A DNA stretch of 25,104 bases from a virus. Made by a program: the position numbers and the translations under genes. The notes beneath the pieces were generated by a model that was not told the origin of the DNA, ran no database searches, and was given only the letters and a program-made list of their open reading frames with translations. Location: positions 1 to 25,104 of the IMG/VR virus record IMGVR_UViG_3300020462_000046; one strand, written 5' to 3'. Positions 3,681 through 20,170 of this stretch are shown one piece after another (position 1 is the first letter of the stretch; each line of letters begins with the position of its first letter).

Positions 3681-5295
3681 CAACTGGTGTCCACCTTTCA
3701 CCATATTCATCTACTTGTGGTATAGGGTCATCAATACCATTATCTAGGAAACCAAATGGTGCAAGGTCTTGTTCTAATTGATTTTGACTTTCTGCAAACA
3801 ACTTAGCTCTAACATCACTGTCAGTAAGTTCTTTAAAATAAGTTTGTCCAGATAACCACGCAAATAGTACACAACACATCATTAAATCATCGTGGTGTCC
3901 TTCTTCTGCTTGATATGACTGTCCGTGAAGAACAAATGAAGACATCTCTGCAACTATATCGTAATCTTCCAATATAATCTTATTAGACTCTACCATTGTT
4001 TTTAGATTAGAACAACCGATTTTTTTAACTGCTTTAGTTGTTCTCACACCAAGTTGTGATTTACCACCACTAAATCCACCACCAACTATTTGACCAGCAC
4101 GACCTCTCATACTTGCCATAATTAGATTATCATATTCTAAATCAAATTGTAATGCATTTGCAACTTGGTCACCAATATCATTTACTTCTATTAATACAAA
4201 TGCTTGATTGTATGCAAGTGCAACATCTTTAATAATATTAGGAAATAACATAGGTTTTATTTCATTATTTTTATATTTTGCAACCATACGATATGGTAAT
4301 TGAGAAACATCAACAACTATAAATGCAGATGCATCACCTTGAATACCTCTAGCTACATCTGCAACAATTACATATGTACCACCTTTTTTAGGTTTTTCAT
4401 ATACATCAAGACCAGCATTAGATGTTAAAGGTGTTCTTAAAGGTATTGTTTTTATTTTAGATGCATTTATTAATGTATTAGTAGAACCTAAGAACTCACA
4501 CTCAAATTCTTTTTGAAACTGTGCTTCACTTGTATTTGCAATCGTTTCTTTTTTCCATTTCTCATCTCTGCCTGGTACTTCAGACCAATGAACCTCTATC
4601 GGTACATAAGTATTCTTTTTTGTTTCTGCATCTGTCCATAATTTATAATACATATTCATACCGTTTGGTGTTGACACAATAATCACCTTTGTAGATTGAC
4701 CAGATGAAATAGTAGGATAAACTGAACTAAAAAACTCTTCTGCAATATTTGTAGGTACAAACGCAAACTCATCTAAAAATATCATATTGTATGAACCACC
4801 ACGAACTGCACTTGATGATGTTGAAGCTGCAACTATGCGTGAACCATTTTCTAATTCTAAACTACCTTTATTCCACGATAGTATTCCTTGTTGCAACCAT
4901 TTAGGTAAATGTTCATATGCAAGTTGTAATCTAGATAAAATATCTCTTGCAGTTGCAGCTTTGTTTGCAAGTATCGCTACATTCATATTTTGATTAAATA
5001 AAACATAATGTAATATATACGAAACCATTGTGGTTGTTTTACCAGATTGTCTAGGTAGTTTACAGATTGTAAAACGATTGTTGTGAAATGTACCAACCAT
5101 TTCTTTTTGAAAAGGGTACATATCAAATGGTATTAAACCTTTATCTAATGATACAATTTTTATATATTTTTCTATAAAATACTGTGGGTCATTCATACAT
5201 TTTTGAAACTCAAGAATATTTTCTTTTGTAAACTCTTGACTTACAAATGCTTTCTTTAAATTAGGATTTCCTAGATATTGATTTTCTATGCCCAT
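3655..5295 (-). CDS. 17: Large terminase subunit gp17 (packaging ATPase and nuclease)
   Basis: 546 residues (T4 gp17 has 610). This is the motor that pumps DNA into the prohead and cuts the concatemer. The ATPase domain shows Walker A LPRQSGKTT (residues 80-88), Walker B MIFLDE (171-176) and the coupling motif STPNG (208-212). The RNase H-like nuclease domain shows acidic residues at D313 (VADVARG), E370 (LIEVND) and D469/D470 (HHDD), so both activities look intact. The start ATG at 5295 is nested within the last codons of the upstream fibre gene A (10-base overlap), which makes the N-terminus M-G-I. gp16 is not adjacent: three fibre-like genes lie between the two terminase subunits. The 3' end overlaps the plus-strand HNH-like gene by 26 bases. 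Confidence 0.96.
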   Translation of the reverse strand: MGIENQYLGNPNLKKAFVSQEFTKENILEFQKCMNDPQYFIEKYIKIVSLDKGLIPFDMYPFQKEMVGTFHNNRFTICKLPRQSGKTTTMVSYILHYVLFNQNMNVAILANKAATARDILSRLQLAYEHLPKWLQQGILSWNKGSLELENGSRIVAASTSSSAVRGGSYNMIFLDEFAFVPTNIAEEFFSSVYPTISSGQSTKVIIVSTPNGMNMYYKLWTDAETKKNTYVPIEVHWSEVPGRDEKWKKETIANTSEAQFQKEFECEFLGSTNTLINASKIKTIPLRTPLTSNAGLDVYEKPKKGGTYVIVADVARGIQGDASAFIVVDVSQLPYRMVAKYKNNEIKPMLFPNIIKDVALAYNQAFVLIEVNDIGDQVANALQFDLEYDNLIMASMRGRAGQIVGGGFSGGKSQLGVRTTKAVKKIGCSNLKTMVESNKIILEDYDIVAEMSSFVLHGQSYQAEEGHHDDLMMCCVLFAWLSGQTYFKELTDSDVRAKLFAESQNQLEQDLAPFGFLDNGIDDPIPQVDEYGERWTPVVRKYDTNW

Positions 5296-5297
5296 TG
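5286..5297 (-). repeat. Nested fibre/next-gene junction (fibre A to gp17)
   Basis: The minus strand reads CAATGGGCATAG. In the fibre frame it is Q-W-A-stop. One frame over it holds ATG-GGC-ATA, the M-G-I start of gp17. The identical 12-mer ends fibre D at 17042-17053, and near-identical forms end B and C. Confidence 0.8.
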
Positions 5298-7085
5298 AAG
5301 TGAAACACCGTGAATAGTATTAACATGAGATAATCCAGCACCTACTATTTTCCAGCGAACTTGTACTTGAGGACTTGCTGAACCAGTTAAAGGTGTACTA
5401 CCAGTAAATATTTTAGTTCCAGAAGAACCAGATACATACCCAGTATCTGTTAAAGTTATTGCATTAAAAGTTGTATTATCTCTAGTTGCAGATGCAGTTA
5501 GTTCTGAATTTAATGCACTATTAATTTCTGCGAATACCACTATTCTTGCTTTAGTCGGAGTAGAACTTGCAGTAAATGTATCAGATATTAAGGTTGTTGA
5601 TGTATCTGATATATTACCTTGTATTTCTTTAACAATAACAACACCAGGCCCACCATCTCCTCCAACAGCACCACCAGCAGGAGTGGAAGGATTAATATTT
5701 CTTGCACCAGCTCCACCTCCACCACTATTTACAGCACCAGGCAAGCCAGGAAACCAATTTGGTTGTACTAATGGGGTGGTGTTTGTATCTCCACCACCGA
5801 AAGGTACTGAAGTACCTTCTGGAAATTCGCCTGCACCAGCACCAGCACCACCACCAGCATAACCTACTGATGTAGTACCATCTGCAATATTATAAAGTAA
5901 ACCATTACCACCCTCTCCACCGATAGGGCCTTCTGCATCTCCACCAACACCACCAGCGCCGCCACCACCAGCAGTTGCTAGTTCACCCCCAGCATCTGGT
6001 TGATTTACACCACCATCATTTCCAAAACTTCCAGGCGAATTTACTGGTAAAATTGAAGGACTTAATGGAATAGGATGATTTTCATCTTGTTTACCTTCCC
6101 CACCAGGCCCCATATATGGCCCAGGCCCAGCACCACCACCACCACCAGAACCACCCTCGTGATAAGTTTCACCAGATACACCACCCATATATGGATGCGA
6201 ACCAGAAGTTAGATAACCACCACCAGCACCTCCACCTTCACCTATAAGAGGCCCGAAAGATGAATCAGAACCAGTTTCGCCAGGTGAATAATATGTATGT
6301 GCCATTGGGTATGAATATTGTGGGTGTTCATAACCACCGAATTCGCCAGTTCCTACACGGCCATCTGGTCTTGCAGTAGGAGTGTAAGGTGTTGAACCAG
6401 GCGCTGGAGGATTATATCCAGCACCTTCTCCACCAGCACCAACCACTACTGCAACTGTACCACCAGGCGTTACTGGATAATTTGGATAGTATATTAAACC
6501 ACCAGCACCAGCACCACCACCTTTAACAGTATTATAACCACCAGAGCCTCCACCTCCACCACCTCCAACAACTAAAACATTAACACTCGTAACTCCAGAC
6601 TCAACAGTATATGTGTGGGGCCCAGTTGCTGTAAATGAAAATATATTTTGAGTTGGTGGAGTAGAGGGCATAAAACCAGAACCACCAGAGTAAAAATCTG
6701 AAGAACTATCATATGTTACATTAGAATTTTCAGCAGTATCTATACCAGACTCATCATTAAACTCATCCACAACACCATCTTTTAAATTAAATATTGTGAG
6801 TCCCTCTGCGACTGCCATTTTAAAACCTAATACACCAATATTAAAAGTATTTGTATCTGATTGTGCTACATTTGCAACTTGAAATGCACCAGCACCATTT
6901 AATAATTCTGATGCACTACCAGGCAAATTTAATTTTGAAAATGCAATACTAGCTTGTGGTGATACATCTGTATTTGCGATAGTATTATCTAATATTATAT
7001 CTGAATTAACACTACTATCTGCAAGTTTATCAGAATCTAATGCACTATCACCAATAAGATTTTTATTTACTTTTGTTATTCCCAT
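5286..7085 (-). CDS. Glycine-rich tail fibre/adhesin paralogue A
   Basis: 599 residues, one of five paralogues, probably exposed on the virion as a receptor-binding or fibre-tip protein. Residues ~1-80 hold short repeats (DSALDSDKLADSSVNSD, NTDVSPQASIAFSKL), a pattern of fibre attachment regions. Then comes the family block FNIGVLGFKMAV...GLTIFNLKDGVVDEFND. The centre, from about residue 150 to 490, is a glycine-rich domain beginning TYTVESGVTSVNVLVVGGGG, with many GGGG runs broken by aromatic and proline residues. This pattern resembles polyglycine-II adhesins such as gp38-type tips. The last ~95 residues (DTFTASSTPTKARIVVFAE, ATRDNTTFN, KIFTGSTPLTGSASPQVQ) form a constant beta-rich domain. 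The centre is about 80% alike to B by eye. The function is inferred from pattern and context; no catalytic motif is seen. Confidence 0.75.
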   Translation of the reverse strand: MGITKVNKNLIGDSALDSDKLADSSVNSDIILDNTIANTDVSPQASIAFSKLNLPGSASELLNGAGAFQVANVAQSDTNTFNIGVLGFKMAVAEGLTIFNLKDGVVDEFNDESGIDTAENSNVTYDSSSDFYSGGSGFMPSTPPTQNIFSFTATGPHTYTVESGVTSVNVLVVGGGGGGGSGGYNTVKGGGAGAGGLIYYPNYPVTPGGTVAVVVGAGGEGAGYNPPAPGSTPYTPTARPDGRVGTGEFGGYEHPQYSYPMAHTYYSPGETGSDSSFGPLIGEGGGAGGGYLTSGSHPYMGGVSGETYHEGGSGGGGGAGPGPYMGPGGEGKQDENHPIPLSPSILPVNSPGSFGNDGGVNQPDAGGELATAGGGGAGGVGGDAEGPIGGEGGNGLLYNIADGTTSVGYAGGGAGAGAGEFPEGTSVPFGGGDTNTTPLVQPNWFPGLPGAVNSGGGGAGARNINPSTPAGGAVGGDGGPGVVIVKEIQGNISDTSTTLISDTFTASSTPTKARIVVFAEINSALNSELTASATRDNTTFNAITLTDTGYVSGSSGTKIFTGSTPLTGSASPQVQVRWKIVGAGLSHVNTIHGVSLQWA

Positions 7086-7087
7086 TG
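7076..7087 (-). repeat. Nested fibre junction (B to A)
   Basis: The minus strand reads CAATGGGAATAA: Q-W-E-stop for fibre B, and ATG-GGA-ATA, the M-G-I start of fibre A, in the other frame. The two genes overlap by 10 bases. Confidence 0.8.
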
Positions 7088-8875
7088 TAATGATACTCCG
7101 TGAATTTTATTTGCACCACTCAAAGATGAACCTACTATTTTCCAACGAAGTTGAACTTGTGGACTCGCTGAACCAGTTAAAGGAGTTGAACCAGTAAATA
7201 TTTTAATACCAGAACTTCCTGCTTCAAAACCCTCGTCTGTAAGAGTTATTGCATTGAATGTACTATTATCTCTTGTTGCACTTATAGTAAAATCAGAAAG
7301 ACCGTCTGGTAATTCTGCAAATACTACAATTCTTGCTTTAGTTGGTGTTGAACTTGCAGTGAAAGTATCTGATACTAAAGTCATACTTGTATTAGAAACA
7401 TTTCGTTTACTTTCTGCAACTATTATAATACCAGGCCCACCATCACCACCGTATGCACCACCAGCAGGAGAAGAAGGATTAACATTTCTTCCACCAGCAC
7501 CACCACCTCCACTATTTACAGCACCAGGCAAGCCAGGAAACCAATTTGGTTGTTGATGATTAGTTTGATTTGTATCTCCACCACCAAAAGGTACTGAAGT
7601 ACCATCTGGAAAACCAGGCGTATCAGAACCAGCACCACCACCAGCATAACCCACTGATGTAGTACCATCAGCAATATTATAATTTAATCCTATACCACCA
7701 GCTCCACCAGCTTCTCCACTTCCTTCAACATCTCCACCAACACCACCAGCGCCACCGCCGCCACCAGCTGCAGTGTCAGTAGGAACATCTGGTTGTAATG
7801 TACCACCATTATTACCAAAACTTCCAGGCGAGTTTACTGGTAAAACTGATGGAGTCAATGGTATTGGATGATTTGCAGTTTGTTTACCCTCTCCACCAGC
7901 ACCAACATAACTTTGTGGCCCAGAACCACCAGCACCACCACTTCCACCTTCGTGATAAGTTTCACCAGATACACCACCCATATATGGATGTGAACCACTG
8001 GTTAACCAACCACCACCAGCACCTCCACCTTCACCTATAAGAGGCCCAAATGCAGAATCAGTACCAGTTTGTCCAGGCGAGTAATATGTGTGTGACATTG
8101 GATAACTATATTGTGGATGTTCGTAACCACCAAATTCACCAGTTCCTACACGACTATCTGGTCTTGAAGTTGGTGTATAAGGTGCAGAACCAGGCGCTGG
8201 AGGATTGTACCCAGAACCCTCACCACCAGCACCTACTGATACTGAAACTGAACCACCAGGCGTTACTGGATAATCTGGGTAATAAATTAAACCACCAGCA
8301 CCAGCACCACCACCTTTAGTATAATTATAACCACCAGAACCACCACCTCCGCCGCCTCCAACGACTAATACATTAACTGTTGTAATGCCAGGTTCAACAG
8401 AATATGTTCCAGAACCAAGTGAAGTAATAGATGTTCTACCTACTTCTGGAGAAGGTATAGGAATATTTGTTCCTTGATTCGTATAAAAATCTGAACTAGA
8501 GTCGTAAGATGCAGTAACATTTTCAGCAGTATCTACGCCAGATTCATCATTAAATTCATCTACAACACCATCTTTTAAATTAAATATTGTGAGTCCATCA
8601 TTAACTGCCATCTTGAAACCTAAGACACCAATGTTAAATGCATTTTCATCAATACCAGTTGTATCAATAGCACCAAATGAACCATCACCACGAACAAATT
8701 GTGATGGTGGGCCAGGTAATGCAACCTTAGTTGCTGAAATGTTTGCACTAGGAGAAATATCTTCATTTGTAATTGTTGCACTTATTTTAGAAGTATCAAC
8801 TGCACCAGTATCTATTTCTCCACTTCCAATAGAATCATTACTTAAATTCTGATTTTCTAACTTAGTTATGCCCAT
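7076..8875 (-). CDS. Glycine-rich tail fibre/adhesin paralogue B
   Basis: 599 residues, exactly the length of A, with the same architecture. It has an N-terminal short-repeat region (ISATITNEDISPSANISATK), the block NAFNIGVLGFKMAVNDGLTI, a glycine-rich centre opening TYSVEPGITTVNVLVVGGGG, and the constant C-terminal domain ending NKIHGVSLQWE. Long identical stretches with A include RVGTGEFGGYEHPQYSYPM, SHPYMGGVSGETYHEGGSGG and QPNWFPGLPGAVNSGGGGAG, so this is a clear tandem duplication. The C-terminal domain, however, has AELPDGLSDFT and DEGFEAGSSGIK, which match D and E rather than A and point to recombination. The start is nested in the end of C and the stop overlaps the start of A, so translation of A, B and C is probably coupled. 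Confidence 0.75.
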   Translation of the reverse strand: MGITKLENQNLSNDSIGSGEIDTGAVDTSKISATITNEDISPSANISATKVALPGPPSQFVRGDGSFGAIDTTGIDENAFNIGVLGFKMAVNDGLTIFNLKDGVVDEFNDESGVDTAENVTASYDSSSDFYTNQGTNIPIPSPEVGRTSITSLGSGTYSVEPGITTVNVLVVGGGGGGGSGGYNYTKGGGAGAGGLIYYPDYPVTPGGSVSVSVGAGGEGSGYNPPAPGSAPYTPTSRPDSRVGTGEFGGYEHPQYSYPMSHTYYSPGQTGTDSAFGPLIGEGGGAGGGWLTSGSHPYMGGVSGETYHEGGSGGAGGSGPQSYVGAGGEGKQTANHPIPLTPSVLPVNSPGSFGNNGGTLQPDVPTDTAAGGGGGAGGVGGDVEGSGEAGGAGGIGLNYNIADGTTSVGYAGGGAGSDTPGFPDGTSVPFGGGDTNQTNHQQPNWFPGLPGAVNSGGGGAGGRNVNPSSPAGGAYGGDGGPGIIIVAESKRNVSNTSMTLVSDTFTASSTPTKARIVVFAELPDGLSDFTISATRDNSTFNAITLTDEGFEAGSSGIKIFTGSTPLTGSASPQVQLRWKIVGSSLSGANKIHGVSLQWE

Positions 8876-8877
8876 TG
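8866..8877 (-). repeat. Nested fibre junction (C to B)
   Basis: The minus strand reads CAATGGGCATAA: Q-W-A-stop for fibre C, with ATG-GGC-ATA as the M-G-I start of fibre B in another frame. The overlap is 10 bases. Confidence 0.8.
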
Positions 8878-10767
8878 TAGTGCAACTCCGTGAATTTTAT
8901 TTGTACCAGTAAGTGATGAACCAACAACTTTCCACCTCATCTGAACTTGTGGACTAGCACTTCCAGTTAAAGGAGTTGAACCAGTATATATCTTAATACC
9001 ACTTGAACCACTTACATATCCAGTATCAGTTAATGATACTGAATTATATGTAGTATTATCTCTTGTGACTGATATTGCAACATCGGTATTTAAATCATCT
9101 GCTAGTTCTGCGAATAAAACAATTCGTGAAGTAGATGGTGTTGAGTTTGCAGTAAAAGTATCTGATACTAAAGTCATACTTGTTGAACTTGAACCAGCAT
9201 CAAAAACTAAAAGAATACCACCATCACCACCAATGTTTGTAGTACCACTAGCTGCACCTTCACCTTGAGCTCCAGCTACAAAAAGTGCTTGTCTTGGTGA
9301 CGGTAATGCAGTATAATATGGTGCTTCATCAAACACACTTAATGGAGCAGGATGTGAATTTCTACTTCCAACTGCTGTTTCATATTCTAAAGATGGAGTG
9401 GGAACATATGTAGGATTAGAATATCCAGCACCACCACCAGCACCTCCAGTATAACCGCCTGGGTCAGATGTACCACCACCTCCGTGATATCCAGAACCAC
9501 CACCACCATAATGATAAGGTGGATAAGCAATACCACCACCTTGAAAATGTATTGCATCTGGATGTGGAGATTCTTGTGTCCACTCTGCTGGGCCAAACCC
9601 AGAACCCTCACCAAAAGGGTATGACCCTAAATGTCCGTTTGCTTCTTGGTCTGCACCACCACCAGATGCATTAGTACCACCAGAACCAGCAGTAGGTACA
9701 CTAAAACTACCAGAACCATTAGTACCAGCAGTAAATCCACCACCACCAGCTTGTGCTTGTGGAGCACCATTTGAGTTCTCACCACAAGCACCAGAACCTA
9801 CAATTAAAACTGATTCACTTGCATTAGTTGGGGAAACTGTATCTGCAAAACCTGGCCCTTCATCTGGATAAGTGCCAGGCGAATCTGGTTGATGATGAAG
9901 TCCAATTTCATTATATGCACCACCTTCTATAATTGTAACTTCACCATCAAAAATTCCAGTAAAACCACCACCGCCACCAACAGCACTACCACCTCCACCA
10001 CCATAACCACCATTACCACCTATTTGTGGAGCTGTGTATTGAGGGGTACTGTATTGTGGGCCAGTAGCACCTTCACCAACAACATAATCCCAAGTCGCAC
10101 CAGCAATAGATGGACTTGTTATTGTACCTTGTACACTACCACCAGAACCACCAGCACCATTACCATTATTAGCACCACCAGCACCAACCATAGTTGCTTC
10201 TATTGAAGTTGTTAATGTGGGAAATGTGATACTACCTTGAGTTCCAAATGCACCGAATGTTGCCTCTTGAGAAGTATATGTAATTAATGGTGCGTGTTCT
10301 GGGTTTTCAAATGTAACTGCATCTACACCGAGATGCATTGCAACACCAGGCGTAGGTGATAAATTTTGATAAAAGTCTGATGCAGATTCATAAGCTGCGT
10401 TAGAGTTTTCACTAGTATCAATACCACCCTCACTATTAAATTCGTCTACAATACCATCAACAAGATTAAAAATAGTCAGTCCTTCATTGACCGCCATTTT
10501 GAATCCTAACACACCAACATTAAATGCATTATTACCTACTGCACTTAAATCAACAGCACCAAAACTTCCATCACCTTTTAAAAAATCTGATGAACTTCCA
10601 GGCAAACTAAATTTATTTAATGCGATTGCAGCTGATGGAGAGATATCAGTATCAACTATTGATGCGTTTGATATATCAGCAGATGAAACTGAATTAGGTT
10701 GAATCTGACTAGAACTAACTTTACCAGAGTCTTGAATCATCTCACTGTTTACTTTAGTATCAGACAT
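8866..10767 (-). CDS. Glycine-rich tail fibre/adhesin paralogue C
   Basis: 633 residues, the longest of the five paralogues and the first of the tandem trio. The N-terminus MSDTKVNSEMIQDSGK is followed by docking-type repeats (SSADISNASIVDTDISPSAA). Then comes NAFNVGVLGFKMAVNEGLTI with VDGIVDEFNSEGGIDTSENS, closest to D. The glycine-rich centre is unrelated in detail to A and B: it opens FGAFGTQGSITFPTLTTSIE and contains HFQGGGIAYPPYHYGGGGSG. The C-terminal domain is the shared one (ISVTRDNTTYN, KIYTGSTPLTGSASPQVQ) and shares DTGYVSGSSG with A. It starts 5 bases after the gp16 stop and so interrupts the usual 16-17 pair. A role in receptor binding is inferred. Confidence 0.75.
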   Translation of the reverse strand: MSDTKVNSEMIQDSGKVSSSQIQPNSVSSADISNASIVDTDISPSAAIALNKFSLPGSSSDFLKGDGSFGAVDLSAVGNNAFNVGVLGFKMAVNEGLTIFNLVDGIVDEFNSEGGIDTSENSNAAYESASDFYQNLSPTPGVAMHLGVDAVTFENPEHAPLITYTSQEATFGAFGTQGSITFPTLTTSIEATMVGAGGANNGNGAGGSGGSVQGTITSPSIAGATWDYVVGEGATGPQYSTPQYTAPQIGGNGGYGGGGGSAVGGGGGFTGIFDGEVTIIEGGAYNEIGLHHQPDSPGTYPDEGPGFADTVSPTNASESVLIVGSGACGENSNGAPQAQAGGGGFTAGTNGSGSFSVPTAGSGGTNASGGGADQEANGHLGSYPFGEGSGFGPAEWTQESPHPDAIHFQGGGIAYPPYHYGGGGSGYHGGGGTSDPGGYTGGAGGGAGYSNPTYVPTPSLEYETAVGSRNSHPAPLSVFDEAPYYTALPSPRQALFVAGAQGEGAASGTTNIGGDGGILLVFDAGSSSTSMTLVSDTFTANSTPSTSRIVLFAELADDLNTDVAISVTRDNTTYNSVSLTDTGYVSGSSGIKIYTGSTPLTGSASPQVQMRWKVVGSSLTGTNKIHGVALQWA

Positions 10768-10772
10768 TTTAC

Positions 10773-11162
10773 CTACTTATTATTTTTTAACATTTTTTGT
10801 AGTTCTGTTGTAGAACCAACAAACAATGCGTTAGTTACATTCTTCGGCCCTTTGTCTGGTAATTCTTTCAACTTTTGCATCTTCAAATGTAAATCACCAA
10901 GTTTCTCTGTGACCTCTGCAACATTTTTTATTAGTTGTCCAGCAACTTCATATGTTCTTGGGTGTTCACTTTCCCTTGCAAGGTCTAATATACCTTCTAT
11001 TGCATCTTGTCCTTTTTCAACTAATGAATAAAAATTTTGTCTTTGATATTCAAAATCATTACCTTCATTATTTGTTTTGACAACAGTTTTTGGTTTATCT
11101 TCAACCTTCATAATTTGTTCACCTATTAATGTTTCATCTAGAATATTATTTACTTTAGACAT
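10773..11162 (-). CDS. 16: Small terminase subunit gp16
   Basis: 129 residues (T4 gp16 has 164). The protein recognises DNA and regulates the gp17 motor. The central helical part, DFEYQRQNFYSLVEKGQDAI followed by EGILDLARESEHPRTYEVAG and QLIKNVAEVTEKLGDLHLK, is the conserved coiled-coil core of T4-like small terminases. The start overlaps the stop of the fibre gene upstream by one base (TAATG), giving coupled translation. Downstream it is followed not by gp17 but by three fibre genes, about 5.5 kb of inserted coding sequence. Confidence 0.88.
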   Translation of the reverse strand: MSKVNNILDETLIGEQIMKVEDKPKTVVKTNNEGNDFEYQRQNFYSLVEKGQDAIEGILDLARESEHPRTYEVAGQLIKNVAEVTEKLGDLHLKMQKLKELPDKGPKNVTNALFVGSTTELQKMLKNNK

Positions 11163-12025
11163 TATTCATTTACACCATAAACAATAAATTTTCCCTCATC
11201 TATTGTACCACTTGATGGATAAAATCTTATCCAATTCATTGCAGATGCTAATGAACTTGAAAAGTAATTTATAACACCATAATGATTATTATTGTTATTA
11301 TAATGAATCCAATCAACTATATATTTTTTGTAATCATTAGTATCTGACCTACCAAAATTCACACAATCAATCTCAAAATAATTTCCTACATTTGCTTTAA
11401 AATTCCAACCCTCAAATTCATAATAATTTGATTTACTACTAGAACCTAAAGCGTGAGATGAAGAACCTAACTGTGAATAGTGAGAACCATAATAACCAGT
11501 AAATGATACAGTTGAACCATTATCTGGTGAATCTGCCATTCTTAAATCTGCTGTTGTTGAAAATGTAAGATTATGAACTACGATTTTAAATCTAGTATAA
11601 CCAGTCATTATTGTATTATCAAATATTACTTCAGAAACACTGCCTGTAACATCTGTTTCTGTAATTTTAACATGAGTACCAGCAGAACCAAATGTAAAAT
11701 CATTTCCAGCATCATTTACTTTAAGTGCAGTACCAGCAGAACCTAATGTGTTTATATTAAATAAATTTACTTTATCTAGAAAAGTTTCGTTAAATAATAC
11801 TCTATCATCTGCATTTGTACTAGAATTATCCGTACCATTTAGTGTTAAAAAATCACCTTTGTTTGCACCAGCACCATCTGTTCCATCTAATATAATTGAA
11901 TCGTTTTGCAGACCTAATCGTGTGTCTGCATCTATTTTTGCTTTTGATATACTATTACTTGCAATATCAACAGCCTGTATTGATGCATCTGCAATAGCTC
12001 TACTTGGTAATGTTCTTATCGGCAC
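11162..12025 (-). CDS. Tail fibre-type structural protein between gp15 and gp16
   Basis: 287 residues with a GTG start at 12025, preceded by AGGAG at a 6-base spacing. The N-terminus MPIRTLPSRAIADASIQAVD continues into IASNSISKAKIDADTRLGLQ. This is the same style of short hydrophobic/polar repeats (A-D-x-S-I, A-V-D-I) seen at the N-termini of the glycine-rich paralogues, and suggests a shared docking site. The second half has no glycine-rich centre. It looks like a compact beta domain with aromatic and asparagine/serine-rich patches (GYYGSHYSQLGSSSHALG, WIHYNNNNNHYGVINYF), plausibly a receptor-binding head. T4 has no gene here. No enzyme motif is visible. Confidence 0.6.
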   Translation of the reverse strand: MPIRTLPSRAIADASIQAVDIASNSISKAKIDADTRLGLQNDSIILDGTDGAGANKGDFLTLNGTDNSSTNADDRVLFNETFLDKVNLFNINTLGSAGTALKVNDAGNDFTFGSAGTHVKITETDVTGSVSEVIFDNTIMTGYTRFKIVVHNLTFSTTADLRMADSPDNGSTVSFTGYYGSHYSQLGSSSHALGSSSKSNYYEFEGWNFKANVGNYFEIDCVNFGRSDTNDYKKYIVDWIHYNNNNNHYGVINYFSSSLASAMNWIRFYPSSGTIDEGKFIVYGVNE

Positions 12026-12041
12026 TTTATTCTCCTACTCT

Positions 12042-12049
12042 TATTTATT
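12042..12049 (-). promoter_or_regulatory. Possible late promoter, one mismatch, upstream of the GTG-start fibre gene
   Basis: The minus strand reads AATAAATA, seven of eight matches to TATAAATA, spanning the end of gp15. The predicted start of transcription (about 12035) falls at the AGGAG ribosome site of the next gene, leaving almost no leader. The call is therefore tentative. Confidence 0.3.
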
Positions 12050-12845
12050 CATCACTACCAGTTTCTGGATTAAAGTCTTTTGCATCTTGGAAGAAAGATG
12101 TTGTTTCATTGAATCCAAAGTTGTCATCAAACTCAGCAGATACTGGTTCTGGTGTGACACTATATCTTTGTTCTCTCTTAGGTGATTTGTCTGGTAAATC
12201 TGTAAACTGGTCAACTTGAACTGATTTGATAACAGACTGTGAAGTAACAGGCCCATACAAATAAAATTTTGCAGTAAAAGATAATGTATAGATGATTGCT
12301 CGTCTTGTTGTGAAATCACCTTCATAATTATCTTCGTAATCTATACCAGTTAATACAATAGGTATATCTCTTTTTTGTTTCATATCTAAATTATCATTAA
12401 CTGTAATTGTATATTCTGGTTGAAAGAAAGGTAATATTTGTTCTATAATTTGTAGTGCATCATCACCACTTTTTGCCATAACAAATAATTGTAAATCAAC
12501 ATTATAAGGCACAGGCATATATTGTGTTTCTAATTTACCAGAACCTTTTGCACTTGTCTTTCTAATCTTTGTAACACGATTTAGTTTTCTAGTTGTATCA
12601 TAAGAAAGTGTTTGTATCTCAAATGCAATTCTTGGTAAAGTAATTGCAGTTGTTTTACTTATACTTGCATCTTCTCTAATTCGTGTAAGGAACTTTTGTT
12701 TAGGCCCATATGCAAGTGGAACTTTCATAGATTGTGTAATATTACCAGAACTATTTTTTCTGACAATCTGTACATTATTAAAAATAGTACCAAATGATAC
12801 TATTATTTTTCTAATTGTTTCGTGATAAAATTGTTGTCCTAACAT
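12045..12845 (-). CDS. 15: Tail sheath stabiliser / tail completion protein gp15
   Basis: 266 residues, against 272 in T4 gp15. The protein caps the finished tail as a hexamer and joins it to the neck. Typical features are the N-terminus MLGQQFYHETIRKIIVSFGT, with FNNVQIVRKNSSG and MKVPLAYGPKQKFLTRI after it. Further on are TLPRIAFEIQTLSYDTTRK, MPVPYNVDLQLFVMAKSGDD and ILPFFQPEYTITVND, a well-conserved signature of this family. It overlaps the gp14 stop by one base (TAATG). The acidic C-terminal tail of about 40 residues (SAEFDDNFGFNETTSFFQDA) appears variable. Confidence 0.94.
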   Translation of the reverse strand: MLGQQFYHETIRKIIVSFGTIFNNVQIVRKNSSGNITQSMKVPLAYGPKQKFLTRIREDASISKTTAITLPRIAFEIQTLSYDTTRKLNRVTKIRKTSAKGSGKLETQYMPVPYNVDLQLFVMAKSGDDALQIIEQILPFFQPEYTITVNDNLDMKQKRDIPIVLTGIDYEDNYEGDFTTRRAIIYTLSFTAKFYLYGPVTSQSVIKSVQVDQFTDLPDKSPKREQRYSVTPEPVSAEFDDNFGFNETTSFFQDAKDFNPETGSDE

Positions 12846-14014: not shown

Positions 14015-14017
14015 AAC

Positions 14018-14836
14018 TTATCCTACCATATAATTTACTGGTAACTCAAATCCTAGTTTCATTTCTTCTTCTAATTTAGTGATTTCATCTAACGCTTGTT
14101 GATAGATTGTTTCACCGTTCATAGTAACTCCACCTAACATTTGAACACCGTTAAATTTTGATAGGTTAGCACCCCATTGTTTTTTAATTAATGCAGTTGC
14201 ATATCTTTTTAAATACATATCATCAAACACATCTGTGTAAACTGTTGGGTCTAATTTTCTATAACATTCAATTAAAAGAAAGTCACCATTGTTGAAATCC
14301 TTTTCCATATCTGCGTGAATGTATAATCTGTTTTGATGTTCTTTAAAATCTATTGGATATTCACCAGTAAGAATGTGGTCTAGAAAATCTAGATGCCTCA
14401 TTGTCATTTCATAGTGAATTATTGAAGTTGAACTGAAATCATATAAATCATTTAATCTTAATTGATAACGAACATCAAATAAATTTTGAGTTAATTTATC
14501 TGTTACTGGATAGACTTTTACAACTGATAATACACTATCTGGAATAGGTATATAATTCTCTTGTTGTAAAAAGTCTGCTGTAATTGAACTGTCAACTTTA
14601 TCGGTTGCTGTAACTGCACTTTCATTACTTCTCATTCTTGCAATTTCAGCTGTAGTAAGTTGATGTTTTAGATATGCTCTTTCAATACCATCATAATGGT
14701 ATTTTGAGAAATATTGTAAAGCTTCATCTACTCTATCATCTATTTGGTCATCAGATACATTGATATCAATGACACCTTTACCTAATGCTCTTAAACAATA
14801 TTCTTTAAATGTTGACTTTGAAGTAGGTACTGCCAT
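14018..14836 (-). CDS. 13: Neck protein gp13 (head completion)
   Basis: 272 residues (T4 gp13 has 309). It begins MAVPTSKSTFKEYCLRALGK, followed by GVIDINVSDDQIDDRVDEAL and QYFSKYHYDGIERAYLKHQL, the conserved start of T4-like gp13. Later come LNDLYDFSSTSIIHYEMTMR and FLLIECYRKLDPTVYTDVFD. The C-terminal part is helical and ends GFELPVNYMVG. The start is well set by ribosome site AAAGGAT and a perfect late promoter 19-26 bases upstream. It heads the gp13-gp14-gp15 unit. Confidence 0.94.
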   Translation of the reverse strand: MAVPTSKSTFKEYCLRALGKGVIDINVSDDQIDDRVDEALQYFSKYHYDGIERAYLKHQLTTAEIARMRSNESAVTATDKVDSSITADFLQQENYIPIPDSVLSVVKVYPVTDKLTQNLFDVRYQLRLNDLYDFSSTSIIHYEMTMRHLDFLDHILTGEYPIDFKEHQNRLYIHADMEKDFNNGDFLLIECYRKLDPTVYTDVFDDMYLKRYATALIKKQWGANLSKFNGVQMLGGVTMNGETIYQQALDEITKLEEEMKLGFELPVNYMVG

Positions 14837-14854
14837 AACTAATCCTTTTATTAT

Positions 14855-14862
14855 TATTTATA
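14855..14862 (-). promoter_or_regulatory. T4-type late promoter for the gp13-14-15 unit
   Basis: The minus strand reads TATAAATA, a perfect late box in the 37-base gap before gp13. It lies within a short AT-only inverted repeat (TTATTA ... TAATAA, 14851-14866), which is probably too weak to act as a terminator. Transcription would start near 14848, at the AAAGGAT ribosome site. Confidence 0.72.
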
Positions 14863-14873
14863 ATAAAAAGAGA

Positions 14874-15620
14874 TTATGTTCTTTTCTCTGCACCCTCCAT
14901 AGTAAGAAAACCTTTTGCATCGTGTCCCTCTCTCTCTTCTTTATAAGTAGCATCTTTTTTATAACGAAAACTTAAATTACCAGAAACACTTACTCTTAAC
15001 CCTTTTTTACCCTTTAATTCTGATAAATTAGGTTCTACTTCGTGTACAGCCCAAGATGGAAACATAATTAATCTGCCTGGAACTGGAGCCCAATATACTT
15101 CATTAAGTGTTTCTCTTAATCTAGGTTTTTTTGGGTTGTATGGTAATTGAACTGCGATTGCTTGTGCTCTAGGGTCAGAAAACCATATTTGTCCACATTT
15201 TTCTGGAGATTGTAAATAGTAAACAAAACTAAAGTGTGAGCCTGGGTGAGTATGATTACGATTGTGAGCACCAAATTGAGAAACATTTGCCCACATATTA
15301 TCAATGACTGGTTCTGTATCTGGATTTAAATCCATTATTTCTTGTATTCTCAATCCTACTTTAAGTGCTTCTTTTCCCATGTCTTCATATTCTTCTCGTA
15401 TATGCATATCTACTGCACTATGCCAACCTCTTGAGTTAGAACGAACTATTCCTTTGTTATCATCATCTCTCCATTTAAAAATATGTTTTAACCATTTCTT
15501 ATTTCGTTCTTCATAGTTTAGAATATCTATAAAATGAAATAATGTAGGAAACCATATCTCAGATACGATTTTACCTCTTTTATCAAATGGAACTTGTTGT
15601 GCGATTTTATTAAATGTCAT
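14874..15620 (-). CDS. 2OG-Fe(II) oxygenase-like protein, intact metal site
   Basis: 248 residues from ATG 15620, which overlaps the upstream stop as ATGA; a longer frame starting at 15644 is less likely. The fold resembles the family of putative 2-oxoglutarate/Fe(II) oxygenases with WANVSQFGAHNRNHTHPGSH at residues 110-129 and FVYYLQSPEKCGQIWFSDPR at 132-151. These are followed by PGRLIMFPSWAVHEVEPN at 181-198. The iron ligands would come from the H123-x-H125 region and distal H193, all present. R209 could anchor 2-oxoglutarate. The substrate is unknown; protein or nucleotide hydroxylation are both open. It is the last gene of the cassette before gp13 and would be co-translated with the preceding oxygenase-like gene. 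Such genes are common in marine T4-like phages. Confidence 0.75.
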   Translation of the reverse strand: MTFNKIAQQVPFDKRGKIVSEIWFPTLFHFIDILNYEERNKKWLKHIFKWRDDDNKGIVRSNSRGWHSAVDMHIREEYEDMGKEALKVGLRIQEIMDLNPDTEPVIDNMWANVSQFGAHNRNHTHPGSHFSFVYYLQSPEKCGQIWFSDPRAQAIAVQLPYNPKKPRLRETLNEVYWAPVPGRLIMFPSWAVHEVEPNLSELKGKKGLRVSVSGNLSFRYKKDATYKEEREGHDAKGFLTMEGAEKRT

Positions 15621-16276
15621 ACATAACTTGGGCCGTGTAACCAACCCTCAATACAATTTCTTACACCCTTTGTGACTTTGGTAACACGCCAAGGAACAAA
15701 AGATGGGAATATAATTATTTGACCTTTTTCTCTAAATAATTTATTATCCGTGTTCATATTCATTAATTCAATATGTCCACCATCGTAATCTTTGGTGTCA
15801 GATAATTGAATAATAAAAGTTAATTTTCTAAATGGTGCATTGTTTCCTATGTCTAAATGATAATTATACATATCTTTGTTCTTATAACAAACTATTTGTG
15901 GATTGTCTGCTTGATAGAAACCAGCAAGTTGCATTTTAAAATTTTTATCATTAGCTTGTTGTGCAAGTTCCAACACTTTAGTGTAAGGCCAACCTTTGTC
16001 ATTCATAGGTAAAGATTGTTGTGTTGCTTTTCTTACACCCTTTAATGAACTATCAACCCATAATTCTTTAACCGTTTCTTTTACTATTGCATCACATTCT
16101 TTCTCTGCAAAAAACTGTGATGTTAATATAGAAACTATGTTTTTATTACCGACCAGTTTGACAATATTTTTATCATCTGGTTCAACTATATTTTTTTCTT
16201 GGGGTTCTTCTTTTTTTTCTTCTTCCTTTTTAGGAAGTTCCAGAGTATCAATCTCTGAGTCTGTAAACGAATTCAT
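15617..16276 (-). CDS. 2OG-Fe(II) oxygenase-like protein with altered iron site
   Basis: 219 residues from ATG 16276, chosen over a TTG at 16282 because AAGGA lies 6 bases upstream of the ATG. The first ~45 residues are a charged, probably disordered tail (KKEEEKKEEPQEKN). The rest is a prolyl-hydroxylase-like double-stranded beta-helix. YNYHLDIG supplies H140 and D142, FIIQLSDTKDYDGGHIELMN is the core strand pair, and FPSFVPWRVTKVTKGVR covers the distal site. The family normally has histidine as third iron ligand in FPSxxxHRVTPV; here that position is W196, while the 2-oxoglutarate-binding arginine at +10 (R206) is kept. The conserved end GWLHGPSY is also present. It may be inactive, use a different metal geometry, or act by binding only. 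Confidence 0.72.
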   Translation of the reverse strand: MNSFTDSEIDTLELPKKEEEKKEEPQEKNIVEPDDKNIVKLVGNKNIVSILTSQFFAEKECDAIVKETVKELWVDSSLKGVRKATQQSLPMNDKGWPYTKVLELAQQANDKNFKMQLAGFYQADNPQIVCYKNKDMYNYHLDIGNNAPFRKLTFIIQLSDTKDYDGGHIELMNMNTDNKLFREKGQIIIFPSFVPWRVTKVTKGVRNCIEGWLHGPSYV

Positions 16277-16278
16277 AT

Positions 16279-16500
16279 TCAATCCTTATAATATGACCAT
16301 AACTTATCTAAGCAATAATACCATAGTCCGTTTATTGCTGGTTCAATTAACGCAACCAGACCAGCTTCAAATAAACTTGCGTTAGTAATTGTACTAACAA
16401 CAATCATTGAAATAATTATGTGTCCTAAAGTATAAACTAATGCACGACCAAAACTCGTGCTTAATATTACTTTAAATATTCCACTTGTAAATTCTGTCAT
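16279..16500 (-). CDS. Small DUF2061-like membrane protein
   Basis: 73 residues with two hydrophobic segments, roughly residues 19-38 (ALVYTLGHIIISMIVVSTIT) and 42-59 (SLFEAGLVALIEPAINGL), and a short charged C-terminus (DKLWSYYKD). The pattern SFGRALVYTLGHIII...EAGLVALIEPAINGLWYY resembles the DUF2061 family of small inner-membrane proteins of unknown function. No ribosome site precedes the ATG. A perfect sigma70-type promoter places the transcription start at or within a base or two of the ATG, which suggests a leaderless message. It is followed after 2 bases by the oxygenase-like gene with the altered site. Confidence 0.65.
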   Translation of the reverse strand: MTEFTSGIFKVILSTSFGRALVYTLGHIIISMIVVSTITNASLFEAGLVALIEPAINGLWYYCLDKLWSYYKD

Positions 16501-16507
16501 AACAATA

Positions 16508-16535
16508 ATTATACATCATTTTTTTTCAATGTCAA
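16508..16535 (-). promoter_or_regulatory. Perfect sigma70-type promoter upstream of the DUF2061/oxygenase cassette
   Basis: The minus strand has TTGACA at 16530-16535 and TATAAT at 16508-16513 with a 16-base spacer, so both hexamers match consensus exactly. The -35 lies in the last codons of the preceding gene. Transcription would start about 16500-16502, at the ATG of the small membrane protein. This implies expression by the host polymerase, independent of the late programme. Confidence 0.65.
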
Positions 16536-17028
16536 TAGGGTTTTTTATTTGTTCAACATCTGCATTAGTGGGTTTTATTAACCATTGTTTAGTTCTATGT
16601 TTTTGTCCATTAAAAACTTTTCCCTCTTTTGCATCTTGCAACCATTTATGTAATCGTGTAGATTTTACTGGTTTATATTCTTCTACCCAACCACCATCTA
16701 ATCTTCTAGATAATTTACCACCAGTTTTAGGTTTAGGCATTTTATTCCAGTGAAAATGTTGTTTACTAGTATTATTATTCATATAATAATTTTTTTTGTG
16801 ATATCTTCCCTCTTTAATTGCAATCCAAGTTTTAATTTGTTCTTTTTGTCTTTCCTTTTTACGAATCATTCGTTCCCAACGAAACAGTCTTTGTGTTTCA
16901 TCTTCTACTGTATAGAAACGACCTTGTTCATCAACCATTGTACCACCGTATCTCTTATCGTGATAGGATATGATTGGGGGAAATTCTTCTTTAGTCGGAG
17001 TTTTATATTTTTGTTTAAATATTTTCAT
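16516..17028 (-). CDS. Unrecognised basic protein, 170 residues
   Basis: I do not recognise this protein. It is strongly basic, with many lysines, arginines, histidines and tryptophans (RLFRWERMIRKKERQKEQIK, KPVKSTRLHKWLQDAKEGK). It has no hydrophobic membrane segment and no cysteine pairs. The middle, around residues 45-65, is predicted to be helical. The composition would suit nucleic-acid binding or a virion-internal protein, but that is a guess. Its start overlaps as ATGA the end of an 8-codon reading frame (M-G-I-V-Y-I-L-L) that begins inside the end of fibre D. Its last codons contain the -35 of the downstream sigma70-type promoter. Confidence 0.6.
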   Translation of the reverse strand: MKIFKQKYKTPTKEEFPPIISYHDKRYGGTMVDEQGRFYTVEDETQRLFRWERMIRKKERQKEQIKTWIAIKEGRYHKKNYYMNNNTSKQHFHWNKMPKPKTGGKLSRRLDGGWVEEYKPVKSTRLHKWLQDAKEGKVFNGQKHRTKQWLIKPTNADVEQIKNPIDIEKK

Positions 17029-17041
17029 AATAATATATATA

Positions 17042-17053
17042 CTATGCCCATTG
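17042..17053 (-). repeat. Relic fibre junction after fibre D
   Basis: The minus strand reads CAATGGGCATAG, identical to the A/gp17 junction. Here the nested ATG-GGC-ATA start no longer leads into a long gene. It opens only an 8-codon frame that stops in an ATGA overlap with the next gene's start at 17028. Confidence 0.75.
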
Positions 17054-18586
17054 AAGAGCTACACCATGTATTTTATTTGCACCAGTTAAAGATGAACCTA
17101 CTATTTTCCATCTTAACTGAACTTGAGGACTCGCACTACCAGTTAAAGGTGTACTACCAGAAAATATCTTAATACCAGAACTTCCTGCTTGAAATCCCTC
17201 ATCAGTCAAAGTCATTGAGTTGAATGTGGTGTTATCTCTTGTTGCACTTACAGTGAAATCAGAAGTTCCGTCTGGTAATTCAGCAAATAAAACTATCCTT
17301 GCTTTACTTGGTGTTGCATTTGCAGTGAATGTGTCAGATATTAGTGTCATAGATGTATTACTATTTAAGAATTGTGATGTTGCAACAATAACTCTACCAT
17401 CTGCACCATCACCAGCTTCGCCAGGGTGGCCACCAGCACCACCGCCACCAGTATTAGCAACAGCATCTCCTCCAGAACCATCGCCTCCAGAACGACCCCC
17501 TTCATCACCTTCACCACCTTCACCGCCAGGACTTTGAGGATGTGGCCCAGCGCCTGCTCCACCTCCCCCACCAAAACCAACAGCTGTTGAACCATCTAAT
17601 ATGTTATAATCTAAACCCTCACCACCCATACTTTTTATTGATTGACCAGCACCATTAGGATGATTAAAGTTTGTACTTCCAGCACCACCACCACCAAAAC
17701 CATAAACTTGTGGCCCAGCTGCAGAATTACCAAAACTACCTACTTGTTCAGAACCTTCAGCAGAAAAACTTGGTGGAGAATTTACATATGCAGTTCCTTC
17801 AAAATCAGACAATCCAGTAACTGGATGATTAGATGATTGAGTTCCCAGTCCACCACTATTTCCAACTGGAGGTTGATTTGACAAACCACCACCAGAACCG
17901 CCTGGTCTTTGAGTACCATTTGTATAACCAGAAGCACCACCACCTTCACCTATGATATTTACACTTGGTGAATATACAAAAGTAGTATCACCTCCGTCTT
18001 CACCAGTGCCTGGGCCAGGATAACCAGTTCCTTCACCACCTTCTCCTATTGTAACAGAATAAGTTCCACCACTCGTAACTGATAAATTATTTAAATAAAT
18101 TAATCCACCAGCACCTCCACCACCACCAACATAAGATGGGTGGCCGTCAGCACCACCTCCACCACCACCGACTACTAATAAATTAATTGCAGTTGTTGTT
18201 GCTGGTGCAGTATATGTGCCTGGACTTGTAAAATCAGAAACTATGTATGGACTGCCTGGATATGGGCCTGATTGTTGATTAGTATAAAAATCTGAAGTAG
18301 AATCGTAAATTGCATTTGAATTTTCTGAAGTATCTACACCACCTTCACTATGAAACTCATCAACAATACCATCTACTAAATTAAATATTGTCAAACCTTT
18401 ATTGACTGCGTATTTAAATCCTAATACACCAATATTAAAAGGATTATTTGTCTCAGTTAAATCAGTTGCAATTCCAGTTTTTGTAGATGTGATACTTGCA
18501 CTAGGTGATATGTCTGCATCAACGATAGTTCCATCTGTGATGTCAGTTGATTTTATCTGAGTTAAACCAGTTAAAGGATTTGGCAT
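17042..18586 (-). CDS. Glycine-rich tail fibre/adhesin paralogue D
   Basis: 514 residues and the shorter member of the upstream pair. It has a brief N-terminal docking region (MPNPLTGLTQIKSTDITDGT, VDADISPSASI), the family block NPFNIGVLGFKYAVNKGLTI with VDGIVDEFHSEGGVDTSENS, and a glycine-rich centre opening YTAPATTTAINLLVVGGGGG. The centre shares the V-V-G-G-G-G opening and the DYNILDGSTAVGFGGGGGAG motif with A and B, but is otherwise its own. It also has GGEGGEGDEGGRSGGDGSGG, an acidic glycine stretch. The constant C-terminal domain ends NKIHGVALQWA, with AELPDGTSDFT and DEGFQAGSSGIK. It starts 3 bases after E stops and probably works as a virion receptor-binding part, as inferred for the others. 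Confidence 0.74.
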   Translation of the reverse strand: MPNPLTGLTQIKSTDITDGTIVDADISPSASITSTKTGIATDLTETNNPFNIGVLGFKYAVNKGLTIFNLVDGIVDEFHSEGGVDTSENSNAIYDSTSDFYTNQQSGPYPGSPYIVSDFTSPGTYTAPATTTAINLLVVGGGGGGADGHPSYVGGGGGAGGLIYLNNLSVTSGGTYSVTIGEGGEGTGYPGPGTGEDGGDTTFVYSPSVNIIGEGGGASGYTNGTQRPGGSGGGLSNQPPVGNSGGLGTQSSNHPVTGLSDFEGTAYVNSPPSFSAEGSEQVGSFGNSAAGPQVYGFGGGGAGSTNFNHPNGAGQSIKSMGGEGLDYNILDGSTAVGFGGGGGAGAGPHPQSPGGEGGEGDEGGRSGGDGSGGDAVANTGGGGAGGHPGEAGDGADGRVIVATSQFLNSNTSMTLISDTFTANATPSKARIVLFAELPDGTSDFTVSATRDNTTFNSMTLTDEGFQAGSSGIKIFSGSTPLTGSASPQVQLRWKIVGSSLTGANKIHGVALQWA

Positions 18587-18589
18587 AAT

Positions 18590-20170
18590 TTATTTCCACT
18601 GCAAAGCAACACCATGAATTTTGTTTGCACCAGTCAAAGATGAACCCACTATTTTCCATCTTAATTGTACTTGAGGTTGACCAGGCGCAGCTCCAGTCAA
18701 AGGTGTTGAACCAGTAAATATTTTAGTACCACTAGAACCAGCTGCATATCCTTCATCAGTCAAAGTAATATTGTTAAAATTAGTATTATCTCTAGTTGCA
18801 GAAACTGTAAAGTCTGATGTTCCATCTGGTAATTCTGCGAACACAACTATTCTTGCACTTGAAGGAGTTGAGTTTGCAGTAAAGGTATCTGAAACTAAAG
18901 TCATTGTAGATGCTGTTGCTTGAGTGGTAGCTTGTCTTATTATAACTATTCCGTTTCCACCATCTCCACCAGAAGCAGGAGGAGAAGGGCCACCAGCACC
19001 ACCTCCGCCACCACCAGTTCCGTCTACACCATCAAATCCACTTTTTTGGCCTGGGTGAGGACTTATGCCTGGTCTTGCACCACCTTGTCCACCACCACCA
19101 ACTGATGGGTGTGTTGCTACTGTTGAAAATCCAGTTCCTAAACTACCTCCACCACCACCACCGAATACACCAGTTGGGCCGATTGCAGTTGCAAGTGGGG
19201 AAGGTATCGTTGGTAAAGGTGAAAGAACTGGGCCAGGAAAATCTGTGAAAGGTTGTCCAGCACCAGCATCTCCTAATCCATTACCACCACCAGCTTCTCC
19301 AGCACCGCCAGCACCACCGCCGCCTCCACCGCCTCCAGAACCAGTGTTTCCTTGAGCTCCACCATTATTTCCAAATGCAGTAAAATCACTAGGAACTGGT
19401 TGGGTTACTTTTGGTATAGCAGTTCCAGAACTACCAGTACCTATGCCACCACCTCCACCACCACCAGAAGAACCACCTTGTGCTGTTGAATCTAATGGAG
19501 TCGGAGTACCATAGTTGTTTTGTAATCCTCCACCACCACCTATTGCAGTAACTACAAGAGGTGTAGGAAATGTAAATGTTGAATTCCCACCTTTTGCTCC
19601 AGGCGAGTTATAACCATTTGGGTCAGTTCCATCACCACCAGTACCACCAGAACCTACTGTTATAGGAAATGATGCACCTTGTGTCAATGTTACATTTTCA
19701 CCAAATACAACACCACCAGCACCACCACCGCCACCTTGACCATCAGCACCGCCACCACCACCAGCAACAATTAATATGTCACTAGCAGTAGTTGTACTAG
19801 GATTATTATATGTGCCTGGAGATGTAAATACTGAAAATGTAGATTGAGGAACTGGGTTTGGAGTAGCTGCACCTAAATTTTGATAAAAATCTGAAGTTGC
19901 ATCATAAGTTGCATTTGAGTTTTCTCCAGTATCTATACCAGATTCATCATTGAATTCATCTACGACACCATCTACTAGATTGAAAATAGTAAGTCCATCA
20001 TTAACTGCCATTTTGAAACCTAACACACCAATATTAAATGCATTTGCACTTATTTGTGCTGAATCTAATCCAGCAATTTTTGATTCAGTTATAGAAGCAG
20101 ATGGACTAATATCTGCGTTTTTTATTTCCGAGTCTTTTATGTTTGAAGATTTTATTGTTGTTAAGGGCAT
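18590..20170 (-). CDS. Glycine-rich tail fibre/adhesin paralogue E
   Basis: 526 residues. The N-terminus MPLTTIKSSNIKDSEIKNAD, then ISPSASITESKI, gives the docking repeats in their most compact form. The family block is NAFNIGVLGFKMAVNDGLTI with LVDGVVDEFNDESGIDTGEN. The glycine-rich centre opens YNNPSTTTASDILIVAGGGG and is very dense in glycine (about residues 280-300 are almost only G, A and E), with many proline-flanked loops (FTDFPGPVLSPLPTIPSPLA). The C-terminal domain carries a small insertion, TGAAPGQPQVQ where the other four have TGSASPQVQ, and ends QWK. Its downstream junction has a 3-base gap, not the nested ATGGGCATA form, so this copy does not share the cassette junction. Virion exposure is inferred. 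Confidence 0.74.
   Translation of the reverse strand: MPLTTIKSSNIKDSEIKNADISPSASITESKIAGLDSAQISANAFNIGVLGFKMAVNDGLTIFNLVDGVVDEFNDESGIDTGENSNATYDATSDFYQNLGAATPNPVPQSTFSVFTSPGTYNNPSTTTASDILIVAGGGGGADGQGGGGGAGGVVFGENVTLTQGASFPITVGSGGTGGDGTDPNGYNSPGAKGGNSTFTFPTPLVVTAIGGGGGLQNNYGTPTPLDSTAQGGSSGGGGGGGIGTGSSGTAIPKVTQPVPSDFTAFGNNGGAQGNTGSGGGGGGGGAGGAGEAGGGNGLGDAGAGQPFTDFPGPVLSPLPTIPSPLATAIGPTGVFGGGGGGSLGTGFSTVATHPSVGGGGQGGARPGISPHPGQKSGFDGVDGTGGGGGGAGGPSPPASGGDGGNGIVIIRQATTQATASTMTLVSDTFTANSTPSSARIVVFAELPDGTSDFTVSATRDNTNFNNITLTDEGYAAGSSGTKIFTGSTPLTGAAPGQPQVQLRWKIVGSSLTGANKIHGVALQWK

Follow-up and report, generated by a model that had tools for sequence, protein, structure and literature searches.

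Five genes with constant ends and exchangeable centres in the late region of an uncultivated marine T4-like phage

The window analysed here is the whole 25,104 bases taken from one virus record, IMG/VR IMGVR_UViG_3300020462_000046, and its genes lie on the minus strand apart from one small plus-strand open reading frame (ORF). Five of these genes, A to E, encode proteins with the same two ends, which we call the frame, around different centres. An original prediction made from the letters of the window placed such a family at 5286-20170, and both the ORFs and the alignment bear out the five genes, their constant ends and these coordinates. However, they do not form one array. A, B and C (array 1) lie between gp17 and gp16, and D and E (array 2) lie about 6 kb off, with gp16, a fibre-like gene, gp15, gp14, gp13 and two 2OG-Fe(II) oxygenases between the arrays. 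The genes and their parts are listed below, with the basis for each in brackets (HMM, hidden Markov model).

5286..7085, minus strand: gene A, frame protein with a glycine-rich centre, 599 residues, in the slot adjoining gp17 (ORF; Gly_rich_2 E 1.7e-8)
7076..8875, minus strand: gene B, frame protein, 599 residues (ORF)
8866..10767, minus strand: gene C, frame protein with a different centre type, 633 residues, after gp16 (ORF; no Pfam match)
17042..18586, minus strand: gene D, frame protein, 514 residues, second in array 2 (ORF; Gly_rich_2 2.8e-14; AlphaFold2 model)
18590..20170, minus strand: gene E, frame protein, 526 residues, first in array 2, after the fibre-like gene at 20173 (Gly_rich_2 2.4e-21)
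5604..6689, minus strand: exchangeable centre of A, residues 133-494 (N/C HMM boundaries)
7391..8482, minus strand: exchangeable centre of B, residues 132-495 (N/C HMM boundaries)
9184..10368, minus strand: exchangeable centre of C, residues 134-528 (N/C HMM boundaries)
17357..18283, minus strand: exchangeable centre of D, residues 102-410 (identity to slot D of relative L086; DNA profile)
18911..19882, minus strand: exchangeable centre of E, residues 97-420 (protein and DNA identity to slot E of L086)
A 5289..5603, B 7079-7390, C 8869-9183, D 17045-17356, E 18593-18910, minus strand: C-terminal half of the frame (HMM boundaries; fold)
A 6690..6983, B 8483-8776, C 10369-10662, D ~18284-18541, E ~19883-20140, minus strand: N-block (HMMs; fold)

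The C-terminal domain is constant, as predicted, but it is 105 residues long rather than about 95; in the aligned set it is 70-78% identical to that of A, and more than half of its columns are invariant. The N-block (FN[IV]GVLGFK...DEF...SDFY) is 60-71% identical to that of A. HMMs of either end, trained on relatives, each recover A to E at E values of about 1e-33 to 1e-54, and the similarity of the shared ends is far beyond chance. The centres, 309-395 residues long with 24-32% glycine, are varied and glycine-rich as had been claimed, except that the centre of C is of a different type, outside Gly_rich_2 and without any Pfam match. The centres of A and B had been called nearly the same, and they are alike, yet at 76% identity the wording is slightly strong. 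All other pairs of centres are 26-41% identical, figures that are inflated by glycine bias.

A search of IMG/VR returned 64 loci with the C-domain as query and 74 with the N-block; these relatives, mostly metagenome contigs, carry L-numbers as labels (L016, L086 and so on). Most related contigs keep both slots, with 2-3 genes in array 1 and 2-3 in array 2. This one genome had been predicted to store a repertoire, and we agree, as the nearest relatives (three contigs of 57, 47 and 42 kb) hold five C-domains each and two more distant contigs hold six. The more distant L098 (7149-17823) and L116 (9659-20333) each pack six frame genes into about 11 kb, with all the centres different.

The contig L086 illustrates how the centres change. 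Its gp13, gp14, gp15, gp16 and gp17 proteins are 98-100% identical to those of the window. In slot E the N-block is 93% and the C-domain 92% identical to the window protein, whereas the centre is 34% identical; slot D gives 90%, 87% and 38% for the same parts. At the DNA level identity stays near 90% until the N-block ends, drops to about 55% across the centre and recovers to 86-87% in the C-domain. The centre of A is nearest to that of slot A in L016 (93%), and the centre of C recurs at 84% in slot E of L061. Nineteen gene pairs have centres at least 80% identical between ends that are both at most about 82% identical, and several of these pairs cross arrays. L028 and L043 share a centre at 97%, with N-blocks at 62% and C-domains at 74%; for L031 and L038 the figures are 98%, 72% and 82%. 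One genome, L115, has two frame genes whose ends are 90-93% identical and whose centres are 44% identical. With near copies removed, 92 non-redundant genes fall into 37 centre families cut at 60% identity, and 11 of these families have more than one member, nine of which are found in both arrays. The array label changes 8 times on the C-domain tree against 21.8 when shuffled (standard deviation 2.0), and 17 times on the centre tree against 21.9 (standard deviation 2.1). As we read these trees, array membership is largely kept for the C-domain and nearly random for the centre, so the ends descend largely with their slot and the centres move. The claim that the centres are exchangeable stands on these in-place swaps, cross-slot moves and near-random labels; strictly vertical orthologues without swaps, which would speak against it, are not the pattern found in the relatives. 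Across the family the ends are shared, the slots are conserved, centres are swapped and moved across slots, some genes are empty, and the copy number varies (2-3 per array). Homologous recombination is the probable cause of the exchange.

One could argue instead that the centres diverged fast where they stand, by selection or through a diversity-generating retroelement, and some same-slot centres do differ gradually (66-93% identity in slot A). However, near-identical centres turn up in different slots with different ends around them, the centre tree scatters the array labels almost at random, and centre lengths differ by more than 100 residues. No reverse transcriptase (PF00078) was matched in four long related contigs, which are fragments of 42-57 kb. 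We consider this explanation highly improbable and already largely refuted.

The empty genes bear on how the frame is built. Here the N-block runs to the C-domain through 4-6 residues and the centre is absent. We count seven distinct sequences (one cut by a contig end), which belong to three or more lineages: the L016 family at its slot B (11 contigs), the L093/L094/L112/L113 type, and L122. The L016-family orthologue of slot B is an empty gene of 239 residues. L094 is empty where L093 is full, and the adjoining gene is 98% identical between them. An AlphaFold2 model of the empty L016 gene (54 sequences) folds residues 101-239 into one confident beta-rich domain; its block-mean pLDDT (predicted local distance difference test) is mostly 86-94, with two blocks at 73-81. 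This modelled domain is the end of the N-block plus the entire C-domain, and the last third of the N-block supplies the first strands of a beta-sandwich. The insertion point of the centre falls in the turn between strands 130-132 and 138-142, and a long helix is modelled at residues 72-92. The ends had been described as two separate constant parts, but in the empty genes and in AlphaFold2 they appear to make up a single beta-sandwich together, and the centre is predicted to be inserted in one of its loops. A fold search with the empty domain returned CBM27, CBM35 and ephrin-receptor ligand-binding domains at E of about 1e-3 and low TM scores. This places the frame loosely among carbohydrate-binding-like beta-sandwiches, which names a type and not a function.

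Four of the five centres belong to Gly_rich_2 (PF21722), with 35.2 bits for A, 37.4 for B, 54.1 for D and 77.2 for E against a gathering score of 24.3. Single sequences found nothing useful in the PDB. A profile, A3, built from 25 relatives was run against 177,635 PDB sequences, and the sole confident match was to the fibre chains of phage Pam3 (E 9e-5; the next chain has E 1). Aligned directly by hhalign, Pam3 gp24 and the centre give E 7.6e-5 with 38% identity over 66 columns, and gp24 itself scores 23.8 bits for Gly_rich_2, slightly below the cut-off. With the D model, the top Foldseek matches are the Bxb1 tail tip, the Pam3 fibre and the GRD/TG domain of ALK (7LIR, 7NX4, 7NX3); the Pam3 gp24-type tip matches at E 1.7e-4 from a low-confidence model. 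That these first PDB matches are all of one kind lends support, not proof. The comparison with gp38 made in the original prediction finds no support in the form given, and the best matches are Pam3 gp24 and ALK TG/GRD: gp38 had no sequence match in any search (a PDB profile search at E<1; tblastn of phage records). As to polyglycine-II, pLDDT in the AlphaFold2 model of D falls under 50 for most of the latter half of the centre. We believe the following to be new here: ends that are probably halves of one domain with the centre in a loop, the empty genes, a centre resembling Pam3 gp24 and ALK TG, and the frame around other centres in isolated SAR11 podophages.

The frame is also found outside T4-like phages. 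HMMs of the N-block and C-domain that never saw the isolates find it in the SAR11 podophages HTVC201P, HTVC011P and HTVC028P and in the uncultured phage S35C6, with E values of 7e-11 to 2e-8 for the C-domain. HTVC201P gp43, HTVC028P gp29 and the proteins of HTVC011P and S35C6 have the same N-block and C-domain around a non-homologous centre; in HTVC028P this centre is ALK_LTK_GRD (PF12810), while the centres of HTVC201P and HTVC011P could be assigned to no family. They differ from A to E in having one copy per genome (in the stretch read), are annotated as hypothetical or, in S35C6, as 'putative lectin', and are distant at 30-38% identity. The podophage gene lies after the tail fibre gene. In L072 a Laminin_G_3 domain lies between both frame halves, while Rhizobium phage RHph_Y60 clearly shares the C-domain only. 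Searches of isolated phages by tblastn with the whole of A, the N-block or the joined empty frame gave no matches; the podophages were reached by tblastn solely with the distant empty frame from L122.

These isolates bear on another explanation, that the mosaic genes are assembly chimeras formed at repeated ends. The relatives are metagenome contigs, and the 5' part of L033 is the same as in L043, its 3' part the same as in L029. But DNA identity between the ends of different slots is only about 60-82%, which is not enough for short reads to be mis-joined there, and each in-place swap needs two joins while swaps occur in many samples. The empty genes recur, in 11 contigs and in lineages whose end sequences differ, and the isolated podophages have the same frame with different centres. 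We find this explanation very unlikely, and the exchange pattern is independent of any single mosaic such as L033.

The window is late structural DNA of an uncultivated marine T4-like myovirus of the Melnitz/HTVC008M group, because its gp17 is nearest to that of Methylophilales phage Melnitz (75.6%) and of the Pelagibacter phages HTVC008M and Mosig (about 68%). In order of transcription its genes include a large structural protein, fibre-like genes, E, D, a hypothetical protein, a small membrane protein, two 2OG-Fe(II) oxygenases, gp13, gp14, gp15, a fibre-like gene, gp16, C, B, A, gp17 (terminase), gp18 (sheath), gp19 (tube) and gp20 (portal). The genes next to the arrays are these.

3655..5295, minus strand: gp17, terminase large subunit, downstream neighbour of array 1 (E 7.8e-71)
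10773..11162, minus strand: gp16, terminase small subunit, upstream neighbour of array 1 (E 2.3e-43)
20173..20973, minus strand: fibre-like gene directly upstream of array 2, position kept in relatives (tail fibre PHROGs, E 1.9e-16 and 3.6e-13)

Matches to the PHROG 'tail fiber assembly' were set aside, as they rest on the glycine-rich segment.

We believe that A to E are probably receptor-binding proteins that this marine T4-like phage carries on its tail, as tips of the fibres or the baseplate, and that they are made of a fixed socket and an exchangeable tip. The N-terminus, a leader and the long helix, would attach the protein to the tail, and the end of the N-block with the C-domain would fold into one beta-sandwich. 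The glycine-rich centre, TNF-like/glycine-rich and of the Pam3-fibre/ALK-TG kind, would sit in a loop between two strands of this sandwich and so would project as a tip contacting the host surface. Recombination in or near the ends would swap the centre, shift it between slots or remove it, and the frame would stay intact, since all slots and lineages have conserved ends that keep the same register.

The proteins could instead decorate another part of the virion, the head, sheath or neck, and hold the phage near cells or particles as Hoc-like adhesive fibres do. Array 1 lies among packaging genes (gp16, gp17), between the tail-sheath-stabiliser and sheath genes and away from baseplate genes, and the frame resembles carbohydrate-binding beta-sandwiches, both of which would suit decorations. 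However, array 2 follows a fibre-like gene and stands between the large 22170 protein and the neck genes, a place that fits the pelagimyophage host recognition cluster; the podophage frame proteins follow a tail fibre gene, and the centre matches a tail fibre. Decoration therefore seems unlikely to us. A further alternative is that the proteins are not part of the virion but are made in the infected cell, where they would coat its surface or keep competing phages out. Pelagimyophages have been proposed to modify the surface of their host (PMC7029224), but fibre-type N-termini, a place in a late structural operon and the tail fibre match make this extremely unlikely.

Several points weigh against the socket-and-tip reading of A to E. 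The relatives are mostly metagenome assemblies in which chimeras are possible, and L033 and L056 could each join L029-like and L043-like sequences. The N-block link to the isolates is weak (E 3e-5 to 0.01), with S35C6 the weakest and marginal. Because the full-length AlphaFold2 model of D is poor (pLDDT 52), the inserted topology of the filled protein is taken from the empty one; the full model was left out of that argument, and the Foldseek matches of D rest on it. Pfam matches neither the centre of C nor several other centre families. The collection searched holds no isolate of this phage group, and the window phage is known from sequence alone. A scan of genome contigs for the host gave one phage-like contig in a Porticoccaceae metagenome-assembled genome bin and one Alphaproteobacteria contig, both too distant to name a host.

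How copies could come and go without harm may be seen at the junctions of array 1, which overlap as in the relatives.

5286..5295 (A/gp17), 7076-7085 (B/A) and 8866-8875 (C/B), minus strand: 10-nt overlaps (relatives' junctions)

The invariant Gln-Trp end of each gene in array 1 is spelled CAATGG, and its ATG is the start of the next gene, gp17 included. The start codon of gp17 lies within the last codons of A (CAATGGGCATAG), so that gp17 draws its first codons from A; it begins MGI in the window, MS in Melnitz, MA in HTVC008M and MT in Mosig. CAA TGG is found at 40/40 distinct overlapping junctions in the relatives, and non-overlapping frame genes use CAG in 12/67, and other codons too. With the next start codon carried on each gene end, copies could be added or lost while the translation start is kept and gp17 is unbroken, and the overlap may serve translational coupling. 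Unrelated genes fill the gp16-gp17 gap in relatives (L009 17921-19954; L010 18064-20023): an F5/8 type C protein in Melnitz, in which HMMs and Pfam found no frame, and a dioxygenase and tryptophan halogenase in HTVC008M.

Three neighbours deserve mention in their own right. Between gp15 and gp16, 11162-12025 is another variable-tip gene of a different build: in near relatives its first ~100 residues are 60-100% conserved and its last ~180 mostly 12-57%, with gp15 and gp16 on either side 97-100% identical. At 16516-17028, after array 2 in most relatives, is a 170-residue protein that falls outside the known families and is a candidate for a chaperone or partner of the fibres. The sole plausible plus-strand gene here, 3321-3680 between gp18 and gp17, encodes 119 residues with two Cys pairs (CKYCG ... 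CHNC) and has no Pfam match; at the matching place Melnitz carries a hypothetical gene that runs the other way.

Modular fibre tips were already known. A tip held in the loop of a divided domain, stored in multiple copies, belonging to one of 37 families across the relatives and sometimes missing so that the socket is empty, is a clear natural design by which host recognition could change without breaking the protein. It also makes testable how the phages that infect SAR11-like ocean bacteria, difficult to work with in culture, may choose their hosts. The frame HMM can retrieve candidate receptor-binding tips from metagenomes, and the empty genes mark the tip boundaries. We also put forward, tentatively and with more doubt than confidence, that the frame is a general socket by which unrelated ocean phages, T4-like and T7-like, hold non-homologous binding domains such as TNF-like/glycine-rich and Laminin G. 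The arrays would then be a working store, which recombination at the constant ends would reshuffle both inside one genome and among co-infecting phages, and empty sockets would be one state of it.

Among known systems, the tail fibre gp24 of the myocyanophage Pam3 (7YFW, 7YPX) is like the centre by profile and fold. It consists of an N-terminal helix, a beta-sandwich and a glycine-rich tip (PMC9608196). In gp24 the TNF-like/glycine-rich domain is C-terminal and there is one gene, whereas in A to E the centre is predicted to be inserted in a second, separate beta-sandwich and there are five copies, exchange and empty forms. The tip of a Pam3 gp24-type fibre is C-terminal, and here the conserved 105-residue domain always follows the centre; A to E would work like gp24 fibre tips but are not classed as gp24 fibres. 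No Tfa-type chaperone was recognised next to A to E. The gp38 adhesins (T2/S16/PP01-type, with a polyglycine-II sandwich) resemble A to E in having a glycine-rich receptor-binding domain with variable and fixed parts in a T4-like phage. In gp38 the glycine motifs are fixed and the loops vary (PMC12892980), while in A to E the entire glycine-rich domain is exchanged. The domain type common to the centres of A, B, D and E is that of Gly_rich_2 and of ALK/LTK TG (TNF-like plus glycine-rich; PF12810); ALK is an animal receptor and shares only this domain type. We found no description of glycine-rich proteins in the literature on pelagiphages. The pelagimyophage host recognition cluster lies between VrlC and gp14, and the work on it describes whole-gene plasticity, the word glycine being absent from the text (PMC7029224). 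The 22170 protein is probably VrlC. Array 2 stands at the matching genome position and is also variable, whereas array 1, between gp16 and gp17, falls outside the cluster.

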